From the NCBI GenBank assembly GCA_949358305.1, contig OX442314.1, positions 20,081,060 to 20,145,059 on the forward strand: a stretch of DNA of 64,000 bases, written 5' to 3'. The notes below the pieces were generated by a model. The model searched no databases, had not been told where the DNA came from, and saw only the letters and a program-made list of their open reading frames with translations. Origin of the DNA: Strigamia acuminata (lineage: Eukaryota; Arthropoda; Chilopoda; Geophilomorpha; Linotaeniidae). Below, piece by piece: positions 4,401 through 64,000 of the stretch (position 1 is the first letter of the stretch; the number at the start of each line of letters is the position of its first letter). The position numbers and the translations under genes are program-made.

Positions 4401-4966
4401 TAGCTTTAAACTAGTTAAAAAAAATTAGATTGTTTTACAAAAGGGAAACTGAAGTTATCAGCAGGATTATTTCAAGAACAAGAAATACAAGTACGATATG
4501 CAAAAGGGTTGCGTCCCAGATGAGAGCAACACAAAGATATAAAATGACCAATTTAAATTCTCAACAGATTTTACAATCCTGAAGGAAAAACTACTATAAA
4601 GTTTAAAAGTGTAATTGTGTAAACTTAATAAGAAAATACGACACTGGAAATTAGAAATTGAACATAAACAAAACACAAAATTATAAGTGAATACAAAATT
4701 ACATATGGGGTATGGAGGCTACTTCAATTGGTGGTCATCCATCATCCACGACATCAATCTTAAGAATTTAGTATGGCAAAACAATTTTATAATCAAGTCG
4801 CCAACTCAAAATCAATAAATAAGCTTAAGGGTCTTCGGTAAACTTGGTTTATAATTTGAAGTAACTAAAGTGATTAACGTAAATACGATTATTTTATTAT
4901 TTAAACTAACAATTTCAAATTTTATTCAGGATATCAAAAAATTAATTTAAAATGATTTTAACAGAC
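4401..4966 (+). repeat. Shared distal 5' flank of the class I genes (first copy)
   Basis: Recognisably the same sequence recurs at about 10430-11060, 17870-18520 and 32820-33450, each time upstream of a class I leader or its remains. It ends in the ATTCAGGATAT block that heads the family promoter. It shows that this locus arose by duplication even though its leader exon is decayed. Confidence 0.75.
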
Positions 4967-4969
4967 ATT

Positions 4970-5772
4970 AGGTGCGTTCAATCTTAAAATGAATTTCCGA
5001 AATCGCGATTTTCTTGATTTTCAGAAATCAAGGAAATCTGGTTTCAACTTTGAACGGCCTTACAATTTCCCGAAATTCAACTGTTGCACCTGCGCAATTT
5101 CAACCATTAGATCAACTTCCTGTTTTGACATTTAAATATGGTCGGCCGCGTTCGAGAGCTCAAACGTGACCGAAATATTGCGATTTGAGATAACTAAAAA
5201 TCTACTTTGAAATCCACTTTAAAATCAAGAAAAGCGACCCTACACTCTGCATATGTGTAACTTGGGGCTATTTCCGATTGGCTGAGCCTTTTCACTTGTG
5301 TAGTGATACCAAAAATTGATCAAAACAATGGTTGCCATTTTGACTGCTTTCCAGACAAAACAACCAATAAAAAAATTTGAAAATTGTTTTGTTCCCTGGA
5401 AGAAGCAAGCAATAAACTTAATAAACAGGAATGTTTAAATAAACCAACATAAATCTTTATTTTATGACTTCAAGATACATTTACTTAGAAAATACAAACA
5501 ACATTACATCATTTCAATGATTAAAATCATCAAACAAATTTAAAACCACTCTGAACTATTTTTCCTGGTGGCAGCACAGAGTGAGTCATGAGGCTCAGCC
5601 AATCGGTAATAGGCCCAAGTTACACATGGACAGAGTATAGACGTGGATTTCACAAAATCTGATCTTCTGAAATCAGATTTCGTTTTTATGACGTAAAAAT
5701 CGTCACTTCCGATCTCCCGAAAACAGGAAAATCAAAGAAATCCAAGAAATCCATTAAAGATTGAACGCACCT
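4970..5772. mobile_element. MITE, AGGTGCGTTCAAT family, 3-bp target duplication ATT
   Basis: Terminal inverted repeats AGGTGCGTTCAATCTT and AAGATTGAACGCACCT are flanked by ATT at 4967-4969 and 5773-5775. The related flank at 18515 (GGCATTGTCTTATTA) shows the uninterrupted site with a single ATT. No transposase is inside; a second foldback element is nested at 5241-5639. The element splits a family promoter. Confidence 0.85.
5241..5639. mobile_element. Nested foldback MITE, TACTCTGGCC family
   Basis: The left arm TACACTCTGCATATGTGTAA and the right arm TTACACATGGACAGAGTATA are inverted copies, with GATTGGCTGAGCC repeated inverted as GGCTCAGCCAATC. Relatives lie at 13214-13443, 23930-24061 plus 32095-32220 (split), and 62155-62550. 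Confidence 0.75.
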
Positions 5773-5874
5773 ATTGTTTTATTAAGGATGTTGATGAATA
5801 GCTGATTGCATTCAAGTTTATAATTACACATTTTAACATTTTAACGAAAATTGCTATCCAAATTACAATTACCC

Positions 5875-6010
5875 GACGTTTAGAACAAAAGCACATTAAA
5901 TCAAAGAAAGTTTAATGAGTTATGATCATACTGTATGTGAGTTTGCCAGGATGGTGAAAAGTCTCTCAGAAACAAAATTTTCTTGATCGTTTTGATTGAC
6001 AAAGTGCTAA
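5875..6010 (+). pseudogene. Decayed class I leader exon with promoter box
   Basis: The box AAAAGCACATTAAATC at 5888-5903 is followed by the usual spacing and GCCAGGATG, but the reading frame from the ATG at 5953 (MVKSLSE...) hits a stop after 11 codons, and the GTAATG donor that ends the other leaders is not preserved. No matching second exon follows before the L1 leader. Called a leader relic by alignment with 18690-18764. Confidence 0.6.
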
Positions 6011-61000: not shown

Positions 61001-61351
61001 CGGACGAGCGATGCTGACAGAGTGAATGCAATAGTAGCATACTATAAGACTAAGAAATTACAAAAAAATCTTCTTCAAGCCCTGGAAGAAAATGACAGTT
61101 ATGAATACCCAAAGAAAAAATTACATTTCAATCCAAACAATCAAAACATATTTGGAAGAGAACTAAAAAATGTAGAAGGTAGGTTACACTGGTGGACACC
61201 TCGCCACCAGTGTCTGATAATGATACAGTTGAACCTAGTAACAACGAACCGCAATATAACAATTTTTTTTTCGTTTTAACGCATAGGCGGCATTGAAGGA
61301 AGACAAAATTATGAGAAAAAAAGATATAACAATATTAGAACTATTGTTTAA
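58007..61351 (+). CDS. L7: short secreted class II family protein
   Basis: Exons 58007-58063, 58139-58196, 60286-60377, 60989-61178 and 61287-61351 total 462 nt in one frame (153 residues). Signal peptide [38 protein letters not shown]; His exon [17 protein letters not shown]; helical exon [20 protein letters not shown] and [14 protein letters not shown]; last exon [20 protein letters not shown] ending V. It lacks all long repeats and so shows the minimal plan of class II: leader, two short exons, helix, RYNNIRTIV tail. AATAAA at 61488-61493. The 3' UTR is nearly identical to that of L6. Introns 2 and 3 hold foldback elements. A relic of the [12 protein letters not shown] module follows at 61520-61565, behind the polyadenylation signal. 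Confidence 0.83.
58615..59030. mobile_element. Foldback element rich in CCGATATCGG
   Basis: GTTTGTAATAGATTTTGACC at the left and GGTTACAAACTAGAC-type sequence inverted at the right (59005-59030), with many CGGTATCGG and CCGATACCG words between. It lies in L7 intron 2. Confidence 0.65.
60404..60951. mobile_element. MITE in L7 intron 3, 60-bp inverted ends
   Basis: Left arm GTGAGTTTGCGGTTGCCAAT...AATTATGAG and right arm CTCATAATTATAAGG...ATTGGCAACCGCAAACTCAC; the corresponding introns of L5 and L6 are about 62 bp and lack it. Flanked by TA or AAT. Confidence 0.87.
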
Positions 61352-61569
61352 AAGTCGTATCGTAAAAAATTTGGGTTTTGGAGGCGACGCTATGTTTAGT
61401 CGCCAGGGGTCACTTTGGTATACTGTAAATGGTTGAGTTCACTCTAATGTAAAGGGAGGGTAACTTTATTAGCATATCCTGTTTTTGAATAAAATATTCA
61501 CTGTTACCAATGTAACCTTTTCGAAATTTGGGTAGCATAGGCCAAATTGGAGGAAGAGGATATCAGGGT

Positions 61570-63530
61570 AAGCGCGAAACCTCAAAAGGGCGACGCTCAA
61601 AAGAGCGACAGATTCTCTTTTATGCTACACATTAGCGACCGTCATAAGATCGACTGTTTAAAAGAGCGTCGGATCAAGAGAGCGACTGATTAAGAGCGAC
61701 GAATCAAAAGATACATCAAAACGGCAATACTTCGCAACGACGTATCGAAATAGCGGTACGTCGCTCTTACAATCAGTCGCTCTTGCAGTATGTCGCTCTT
61801 GTGATCAGTCGGTACCCAAACACATATCACACATAATCACAATGCAGGAGTATGACATAGTGATGAATACGATGCAAAAAAAACCAAAGTTACTTACATC
61901 GTGTACAGCATAGTTGAAGAAGACCACTATTATAGTTCTGTTTAAATAAAATTAAATAAACTCCAAAAAAATAAAATAAAATCAAAAAAAATTAATTAAA
62001 ATCAAAGAAAATTAAACTAAATCCAAGAAAATTAAATAAAACAAAGAAAATGAAAAAAATCAAAGAAAGTTAAACTAAATCCAAGAAAATTAAACTAAAT
62101 CCAACAAATTGCAACAAATTAAATTGCCAAATAAATGTACCAAAAAATTACCTATACTCTGGCCAACTGTAACTTGAGCCTATTTCCCATTGGATGAGCC
62201 TTTTCACTGGTGTAGTGATACTAAAATATAGATCAAAACACCAGAATTGCATTACATTGTACAGACATTGTAATTGATTAACTATTGTTAGAAAATTGTT
62301 TGCTTTCCAAACAAAGCAAGCAATAAACTGAAAAAACATGAATGTTGAACTAAACCAGCATAATCTTTATTTTATGACTTGAAGATACATTTTCTGATAA
62401 AATACAAACAATATTACATCATTTCAATGATAAAAATAATAAAATAAATTTAAAACCAAACTAAACTATTTTTCCTGGTGGTAGCACACAGACCACAGTT
62501 AGGAGTAATGAGGCTCATCCAATGGGAAATAGGCCAAAGTTACAGTTGGCCAGCAATGTCGCTCTTTTGAATATCGCTCCAGAGCGTTGCTCTTTTGAGA
62601 AGTGCTCTTTTGATGGGCACTATTGTCGTGGCACCCTTCTGAGGAGCGCTCTTTTGATCCTTCATCAGGGTAAGTGTAAAATTGTAGATTTTGCAAAGTT
62701 ATGATGCAAAATAGTAATTGTATGAATAACAAATAAATGATGTTACTCTCCTACCGTTTTGAAGGCCTCACCCTGTAACATTGATATTTGTTATTTGTCT
62801 GAATAAATGATTTATATAAATTGTATATTTATTTCTTCAGCTGAAACTGGATGCTCGCATGAAGAAATGGCACATTCTGTATTGTCATATTTTATTGTTG
62901 TCTTTATTGAGTAAAGTATTATTTTATAATAATTAAATTGTTTGTTTAACAAGTTTAATTAACTAGTCTGATTATTTTAAAAAATTGGACTGGTTAGTGG
63001 TTAGTCAGAGACCGGAAGCCCTGAATATTTTTATGATGAAAACGTCATCAAAATGTTTAAAACCGACGCAAAAAGTTACATTTTTGCGACGTTTTCATCA
63101 TCAAACATGGTGAATGCAAACTTCGTTCAAGTTCACTCTTAAAAGTTAACTAATTTTGTTTTTTGCGTTCACTTGTAAAAGTGAACTAAGTTAGTTCGCG
63201 TTTGATACAACACTGTCAAAAACCTTTGCTATTTCCTTTAAGTCTTAAATAAATCTGAAAACAATCAAATGTGTGTAAATAGATAATAAAGCACTCAAAA
63301 AACAATAATAAAACACCAAACTCGTGTAAAATCGACAATAAATCCGACAACAACGATGAAGGGTAATAATAGCAATGCTCAAAAGAGCGATGCTGAAATA
63401 GCGAAACACAAATGAGCGATGTAACATAAAAGCGATGTCGCTCTTTCGTGTCGTCGCTGTTATGTTACACCGCTCATTCGTGAGTCACTAATTTGTGCGT
63501 CGCTTACGTTGCGTCGCTATTATGATGGGA
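61570..63530. repeat. GAGCGAC-word repeats around a MITE
   Basis: 61590-61810, 62555-62660 and 63360-63530 are dense in GAGCGAC, GTCGCTCTT and CTCTTTTGA on both strands, like arms of a decayed foldback element; 61940-62120 is A-rich with AAAATTAAATAAA units. No gene is supported. Confidence 0.5.
62155..62550. mobile_element. Intact TACTCTGGCC-family MITE
   Basis: Ends TACTCTGGCCAACTGTAAC and GTTACAGTTGGCCAG, with GCCTATTTCCCATTGGATGA returned as TCATCCAATGGGAAATAGG. It is the reference for the copy split at 24061/32095. Confidence 0.8.
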
Positions 63531-63876
63531 AATTCACGTCGGACGTGAACGTAGCCACTTCGTAAATGATAATCAACATTTATAAATTTATAAATAGTAA
63601 TAATAATAATAATATTTATAAATAATAAATAAAAATTTAGGGTTCGATTCTGATTGGTTGGCTGGCTGGAGTTGCAGTTGAAATTTAGATCAACGTCAGA
63701 AATTGTCTTTCCTGCGTTGTAAGTTATGTAGTATGAGAGAATGTCATTGCACTGGCTCACAGTATATTTACGAGCAATGTTTCTGACATCCACTCATAGC
63801 AAATATCCCACGATAGACCAGGATATAGAAAATGCGCCATGTTAGATTTACGTCGGATCCGCATCCTCCGCTTGGT

Positions 63877-64000
63877 ATTAAACCAACCTTTACAAATTTG
63901 ATTGAGGATATAGCCATAAAAGAATAAAGATGTTATTCAAGTTTATTATTACAGAATTAAGCAAATATAAATTCTTACTGAAATTAATGTCCACATTAAA
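63877..64000 (+). promoter_or_regulatory. Promoter of a further family gene, cut by the window end
   Basis: ATTAAACCAACC, ACAAATTTGATTGAGGATAT, AAGTTTATTATTACAGAATT and TTACTGAAATTAATGTCCAC occur in the same order and spacing as before L5-L7. The leader ATG would be expected about 60-90 bp beyond the end. Confidence 0.75.

Follow-up and report, generated by a model that had tools for sequence, protein, structure and literature searches.

The defensive glue of geophilomorph centipedes is proteinaceous, with bands of 12 and 130 kDa in Henia, and its chemistry was given as 'in progress' in 2020 in a source whose reference list shows study of the glue since at least 1990 (PMC7766067). Tests with a cyanogenic centipede showed that its sticky secretion hardens and can kill ants; the list of families with cyanogenic defensive secretions includes Linotaeniidae (PMC6023451). 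Strigamia is placed in Linotaeniidae by NCBI and in Linotaeniinae of Geophilidae by a genome note (PMC10556566). Here, a window of 64,000 nucleotides of Strigamia acuminata chromosome 1 (contig C1:20,081,060-20,145,059) was analyzed against the whole assembly (237,517,015 bases in 157 contigs; C1, 66,985,994 bases). The window carries a tandem family of genes for predicted secreted, repeat-rich proteins, and leader exons, splice chains and promoter alignments bore out the preliminary description in this respect. The family is real and larger than first described: its cluster overruns both window ends, spanning at least C1:20,049,647-20,173,916 (∼124 kb), and a second cluster lies on chromosome 7 (C9, 12.25 Mb).

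Leader scanning and splice-phase tests gave a common gene plan that consists of a leader exon, a short variable exon 2, an exon 3 with histidine (His) clusters and then repeat modules. Exon 1 resembles a signal peptide, encodes 18-20 residues with a hydrophobic core and ends in a donor at phase 0. Seven intact leaders, belonging to genes A, B, C, D, F, G and H, start at window positions 6330, 18704, 33590, 38063, 45080, 52282 and 58007, respectively; two are broken, at 5951 (frame lost) and 42258 (in-frame TAG). One more intact leader, that of gene I, starts at 64081, just past the right edge, with its upstream element inside the window. Exon 2 candidates entering at phase 0 and leaving at phase 1 were found behind all seven intact leaders, those behind 18704 and 33590 being short and lower-scoring; none was found behind an upstream leader at −8748, outside the window. 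Chains from leader through exon 2 to the His exon with GT..AG junctions and an open frame were obtained for six of the seven genes tried (A, B, D, F, G and H), so that the shared exon structure described earlier holds for these six and fails in gene C, which has lost the acceptor at the corresponding position. Of 12 module open reading frames (ORFs) scanned, 10 have their best-scoring donor at phase 1, six of them with a score of at least 7.7; the exceptions were phase 2 in the proline/valine (Pro/Val) ORF of gene G and phase 0 in gene C. In D, F and G, phase 0 is used both where the His exon ends and where exon 4 begins. All four shared features (promoter, leader, exon 2 and His exon) are intact at five window loci, B, D, F, G and H; the earlier count of at least eight is reached only when broken copies and the right-edge copy are included.

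For D, F, G, H, I, J and K, pairwise comparison of the 250 bp upstream gave scores of 133-382, the maximum of 1,500 shuffled comparisons being 33; of these regions, that of I is mostly within the window and those of J and K are beyond it. Against this class, the upstream region of gene B scored 76-128. Those of gene A and two further copies, U and V, scored 197-249 among themselves and 18-53, partly within chance, against the other classes; for the broken copy with its ATG at 5951, the anchor used was 5958. On these alignments, the gene A promoter belongs to another class than those of B, D, F, G and H, and the conserved promoter first reported is upheld for gene B and the D-K class but does not extend to gene A.

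A 26-bp element within these regions, ATTCAAGTTTRTTATTACAGAWTTAA, occurs 17 times in the 237.5-Mb genome at up to three mismatches, whereas the reversed-pattern control gave none. Twelve copies lie in the C1 cluster, one on C9 among family genes, and four on chromosome 8 (C10, 10.36 Mb) in copies of the promoter that lack a gene. The window holds seven, each 139-146 bases before a leader ATG (none in 100 shuffles), and these, like the other family features located in the window, lie on the plus strand. They belong to the broken leader copy at 5951 (5810..5835, from the element scan, and the copy nearest to gene A), gene B (18561..18586, one mismatch), gene D (37917..37942, three mismatches), gene F (44941..44966, element scan), gene G (52140..52165, element scan), gene H (57865..57890, no mismatches) and gene I (63935..63960, element scan; leader 64081-64137). 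In V and U, the element lies 120-123 bases before the leaders; gene C has no copy within three mismatches. A second, TATA-like stretch, AWAARCACATTAAATC, was found seven times against a chance mean of 0.93 and a shuffle maximum of 4.

These orphan copies (C10:2586856-2701093) are four copies of one fragment that is 87% identical to the gene B promoter over 217 bases. The match stops before the leader, and the copies are 27-46 kb apart in repeat-rich DNA with repeated retrotransposon ORFs. No direct repeats were found in 3.5 kb around one of them; 20 kb around one copy contained several direct repeat pairs, the largest 95.6% identical and ∼18.8 kb apart. A mobile or amplified piece of DNA may thus have brought the four fragments to their places. 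The idea, raised by these matches, that the family promoter is itself a mobile element or retrotransposon promoter was rejected because, apart from the C10 copies, the 26-bp element is absent outside the family clusters, which indicates that the promoter is not a dispersed repeat.

The repeat modules share a unit in which asparagine (Asn) alternates, ending in GGR. At least 38 matches were found genome-wide at E values up to 0.001, 3 of the 38 with an internal stop: 28 in the C1 cluster at 20.05-20.17 Mb (six in the window), six at C9 5.594-5.626 Mb, two at C1 38.70 Mb, and one each at C1 18.91 Mb and C1 45.84 Mb. Within the window, the unit is present three times in gene A and also in B, D and G. 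A helical exon occurs in F, G and H, its five genome matches being these three and two just downstream, and motifs like HIHHHHY occur in B, F and G. The modules therefore do not differ completely between genes, as had been stated, although F and H are linked to the family only via leader, promoter, His exon and helical exon. In a ten-sequence family alignment, 20 of 22 invariant columns fell inside the unit. In 9 kb of the C9 cluster, a leader of the same kind was found together with the C-terminus PEYFFDFRQIY (in some cases slightly varied), which is followed by PTDRRYD or PADRRYD; this C-terminus type matches gene A (EYFFDFRKI) and the S. maritima proteins T1IS47 and T1IS48. A solitary member at C1:18909301-18912300 has HHPGGHPFG repeats, glutamine (Gln)-rich repeats and the Asn-alternating unit, followed by an ORF of poly-serine (poly-Ser) and alanine/proline repeats.

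Ratios of nonsynonymous to synonymous substitution (dN/dS; Nei-Gojobori), all of which rest on few changes, were 0.08-0.71 for the helical exon (10 pairs of 33-37 codons). For the C-terminus, the ratio was 0.20 between A and V over 118 codons, 0.30-0.47 between A or V and three C9 copies, and 0.40-0.85 among the C9 copies. Values for the leader (0.43-4.05, 21 pairs) and exon 2 (0.22-1.73, 15 pairs) scatter about 1, with no clear constraint.

When the gene A exon 3 ORF was searched against 5.77 billion proteins, 3 of 1119 candidates matched, all uncharacterized proteins of S. maritima (E values of 6.4e-58, 2.7e-55 and 2.1e-21), with T1IS47 36% identical over 83%. A profile search of the protein collection returned the same three out of 8000 scored. 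These three UniProt entries (T1IS47, T1IS48 and T1IL22) all contain the Asn-alternating unit, as in the S. acuminata family. T1IS47 has a leader of the same kind (MFKILPISIFLIACIVSLTK), and T1IS47 and T1IS48 share the PEYFFDFRQI C-terminus of the C9 copies, nearly that of gene A; by contrast, the N-terminal part of T1IL22 is unrelated and may reflect a fused model. All three are named only as uncharacterized. A search with the helical subfamily matched none of 732 candidates; thus, not even S. maritima relatives of this branch were found. Pfam gave no family above cut-off for the family ORFs, antimicrobial families (attacin and the like) included. Because the protein searches depend on 5-residue words in common and on similar length, and protein sets of other centipedes are, to our knowledge, sparse, they do not establish that the family is confined to Strigamia. 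So far, the family appears only in S. acuminata and S. maritima and matches no described family in these searches. Its designation as probably undescribed therefore stands, and the Pfam and protein searches did not recast its members as fragments of a known unrelated family.

Several weak matches were set aside. DUF7501 and PKD_3 reached 24.5 and 19.9 bits in an upstream paralogue against cut-offs of 27 and 26.3 and were taken as sums over repeats; the DUF7501 profile had no match in the genome at an E value of 0.001. TFIIA and similar weak matches fall on Gln-rich stretches, and PDB profile matches up to an E value of 1 (n = 57, best E value 0.014) were taken as tag and low-complexity matches. 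Among the matches listed in PMC literature, from which most subscription journals, preprints and supplements fall outside, there was no description of the family and, despite study of the material since at least 1990, no geophilomorph glue protein sequence. A search of the S. maritima genome paper limited to six words returned nothing on such proteins.

The modelled chain is complete through the stop codon for gene A, giving 371 residues. Its leader, MLKNIPISIFSVICIGTLTK (6330..6389, a translated match), has the donor GTAATG at phase 0; exon 2, SQFVPVKQSPLTPVRGRSLGDGTIVTPEN (6469..6556), runs from phase 0 to phase 1; and the exon 3 ORF (6609..7576) encodes a His cluster, three Asn-alternating units (6737, 6977 and 7217), a C-terminal helical region, EYFFDFRKIHIPKGHR and the stop. 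In genes B to H, the chain was modelled as far as a module exon, and any joins beyond it are candidates. Gene B comprises exon 1 from the leader scan (18704..18763, 20 residues), the sole exon 2 candidate listed (18870..18900) and an exon 3 of 800 codons with a donor at phase 1 (19913..22315), delimited by ORF, repeat and splice scans. This exon contains, in order, a His cluster, 13 copies of RLANGPLVG (20067-20424), 45-residue repeats of His and acidic Ser (20580-21235), (SSSESD)n (21446-21744) and GGFNTxVNPNxGxNQN repeats (21754-22254). A putative downstream module with an Asn-alternating unit (22512..22616, in ORF 22350-22646) has a candidate join to exon 3. In the last module ORF of this region (23013-23514), a frame change near 23370 reflects either decay or an unrecognized splice. 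Gene C (33590..33783) retains a leader (33590-33643) and an exon 2 candidate (33747-33783), and its His ORF (34633-35046) lacks the homologous acceptor.

Splice-phase tests placed exons 1 and 2 of gene D at 38063-38119 (MFKNLILIFLVVLFDTVIS) and 38202-38259 (GEFQYAKKYRRSSLEHELQ), of gene F at 45080-45136 and 45247-45304, of gene G at 52282-52338 and 52421-52484, and of gene H at 58007-58063 and 58139-58196. Splice-chain tests extended gene D to a His-rich exon 3 (40148..40281, NVNDYLDRHTPHHHHHHKKSS) and, with a translated match, to exon 4 (40346..40781), which ends in a GGGFNTNINQNN unit (40658-40762). In gene F, the chain continues through a His-rich exon 3 (46246-46340) to exon 4 (46403-47180), with the helical motif, an HVHHHHY motif and glycine (Gly)/Asn repeats; the ORF scan located behind it a poly-Ser ORF (47324..47542) with 50 Ser in 72 residues and a candidate splice link. 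The gene G chain includes a His-rich exon 3 (53674-53792) and exon 4 (53856-54374) with the helical motif and (SD)n. ORF and repeat scans of the gene G region added a Pro/Val repeat ORF with an HIHHYHY motif (54668..55441, joins putative), and an Asn-alternating unit lies at 55574..55678 (ORF 55487-55729). Gene H has a His-rich exon 3 (60286-60377) and an exon 4 with the helical motif (60989-61178), its C-terminal unit being a remnant near 61517.

Damaged or partial copies are those at 5951, 9982-15171, 33590, 41677 and 42258. At 9982..15171, the gene B region is duplicated in fragmented form, the fragments being 84-97% identical to 17426-20100; the promoter-leader stretch is missing, and a His-rich ORF lies at 14815-15171. 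An isolated His-rich exon copy (41677..41775) was recognized by sequence match (E value of 4.5e-7), and the leader copy with the in-frame TAG (42258..42311) by the leader scan. A palindrome of 1.37 kb at 43403-44774 is 95% self-complementary. Two ORFs at 56-3061, the first with THAP and TNP-like RNase H domains (PF05485 and PF21787), are P-element-like transposase remains, and Tc3-type transposase helix-turn-helix pieces lie at 9482-9778 and 16893-17192 (PF11427 above cut-off, PF01498 below). The ORF at 26407-26898 has a weak MutL_C match (16 bits against a cut-off of 25) around FDQHAVHERIRLQQL and is possibly a mismatch-repair gene fragment. Minisatellites of 23 and 21 bp at 25163-25432 and 51432-51794 have open frames but are probably not coding. 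Minus-strand ORFs at window coordinates 97329-103998, rightward of the last family ORF observed, resemble axonemal dynein heavy chain.

All eight main exon pieces are free of cysteine (Cys), as are 9 of 11 pieces in another set, the other two having one Cys each (one in frame with a stop, one at a donor); the gene A leader has one Cys, in its signal part. The long exon of gene B has 133 Ser, 94 of them in S-x-[E/D/S]. The substrates of FAM20C include S-x-E/pS and poly-Ser, and this kinase has been proposed to act on Sabellaria cement (PMC12621633). In the S. acuminata genome, Fam20C exons were found at two places on C4. AlphaFold2 modelling of the gene A exon 3 ORF with the three S. maritima sequences gave a mean predicted local distance difference test score (pLDDT) of 35.5, with values above 50 only at residues 5-13 and 269-306, and on this account the predicted protein is best described as mostly disordered. 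In this low-confidence model, residues 269-306 form part of a C-terminal helix pair, and three of four short strands fall on Asn-alternating segments.

As a single reading, the sequence features are most consistent with structural proteins of the sticky, hardening defensive glue of the sternal glands, to which we assign about an even chance; that the family serves some hardening exocrine material, glue included, is probable. Support for the glue comes from the conserved leader and splice phases, the Cys-free exons and the family-only upstream element, and the adhesive or silk role first suggested is made more plausible by the source, a geophilomorph centipede, whose order produces protein secretions that are sticky and, where tested, harden (PMC6023451, PMC7766067). 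The genes would be switched on together in one gland, and the proteins stored as disordered mixtures of polyanions and polycations, with Fam20C phosphorylating the Ser tracts in the Golgi. Once discharged, the liquid would set as His clusters bind metal, phosphorylated Ser tracts bind cations and cationic partners, and Asn-alternating units pair as β strands. We propose more tentatively, and at somewhat less than even likelihood, that this is a previously undescribed, lineage-restricted glue locus, a gene battery in which one gland-specific upstream element is kept while the exons that are exchanged carry distinct kinds of material module, namely His clusters, phospho-Ser tracts, elastomer-like Pro/Val repeats and Asn-alternating β units. 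Such a locus would achieve with a single family what the cements of other animals do with unrelated genes.

A number of points weigh against the glue assignment. The family is known here from its genes, and it is natural history that suggests the sternal glands; proteins of silk, cuticle, egg coat or spermatophore web could have the same composition. Phosphorylation and metal binding are predicted from composition, and the β-strand idea from a sequence pattern and a model of very low confidence. Only 15 of the 133 Ser in the gene B exon lie in S-x-E. The presence of Fam20C supports the reading weakly, as this kinase is widespread among animals. Several copies in the window are decaying. Zinc and copper, the byssus metals, were not detected in Sabellaria cement in the available account (PMC12621633).

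The alternatives bear on the same evidence. Another exocrine structural product, such as sperm-web silk, ultimate-leg gland secretion or an egg or brood coating, would fit the composition alike, and centipedes spin a net for the spermatophore, with a silk-like product of the ultimate-leg glands thought possible (PMC8056527). However, no point favors those glands over the sternal glands, and family expansion fits bulk secretion of either kind; we consider this reading rather unlikely. A role as venom components would agree with a secreted, tandemly duplicated and lineage-restricted family and with the relatedness of centipede venom and defensive glands (PMC11170834), yet the exons are Cys-free and of low complexity. 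For S. maritima, the venom literature describes CHLTX01 and GEOTX1/2 as new peptide families (PMC6878950, PMC7864903), and a venom role appears very improbable.

Scarcely more probable is a role as precursors from which many copies of short peptides, for defence or signalling, would be released by cutting at Gly-Arg, as the 13 identical copies of RLANGPLVG and the units ending in GR might suggest. QL...GR unit borders recur in most copies listed, and Gly-rich antimicrobial peptides exist in arthropods. However, no antimicrobial Pfam family was matched, the residues before QL are irregular, two of three gene A units end in IGAR and the D unit in GGG, and the His, poly-Ser and Pro/Val modules fit such precursors poorly. 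Finally, the cluster might be largely relict, most copies being unexpressed duplicates. The broken leaders at 5951 and 42258, the lost acceptor in gene C, the broken duplicate at 9982-15171, the frame change near 23370 and the remnant unit in gene H are all consistent with this. By contrast, six chains are open, dN/dS is 0.08-0.71 in all 10 helical-exon pairs and 0.20 for the A-V C-terminus, and unit and leader are common to S. maritima, which leaves a relict cluster the least likely of these readings.

The glue interpretation can be set beside three described secretions. The telopodal glue of Lithobius forficatus (Glue1-18, lectins) is likewise a sticky defensive secretion of a centipede with many unknown secreted families; it comes from another gland and another order, and several of its proteins are Cys-rich (PMC11170834). 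Velvet worm slime (ES_P1/ES_P2) is similar in its low-complexity, disordered regions and fast setting, but its chains join via terminal Cys (PMC9218773), and the Cys-free exons here speak against such disulfide networks. A further likeness is to sabellariid cement, with its poly-Ser (Pc-3/Sa-3) and His-rich partners (Pc-4 and Pc-5), together with Fam20C in the S. acuminata genome; the 50 Ser of 72 residues behind gene F compare with 72.9 mol % in Pc-3 (PMC12621633). This comparison, made in the preliminary description, survives for composition and not for homology: only Strigamia proteins scored above threshold among the 5.77 billion, in a search whose word and length filters limit sensitivity and which included no one-by-one comparison with Pc or Sa proteins. 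The candidate gene set, defined by its exon coordinates and family-only upstream element and matched by a sister species, makes the glue question testable. If the glue reading is correct, the family would show how modules can be exchanged while the promoter is retained and, with His and Ser modules in one gene family and often in one chain of a terrestrial animal, would offer a Cys-free comparison for the His/phospho-Ser strategy of marine cements.

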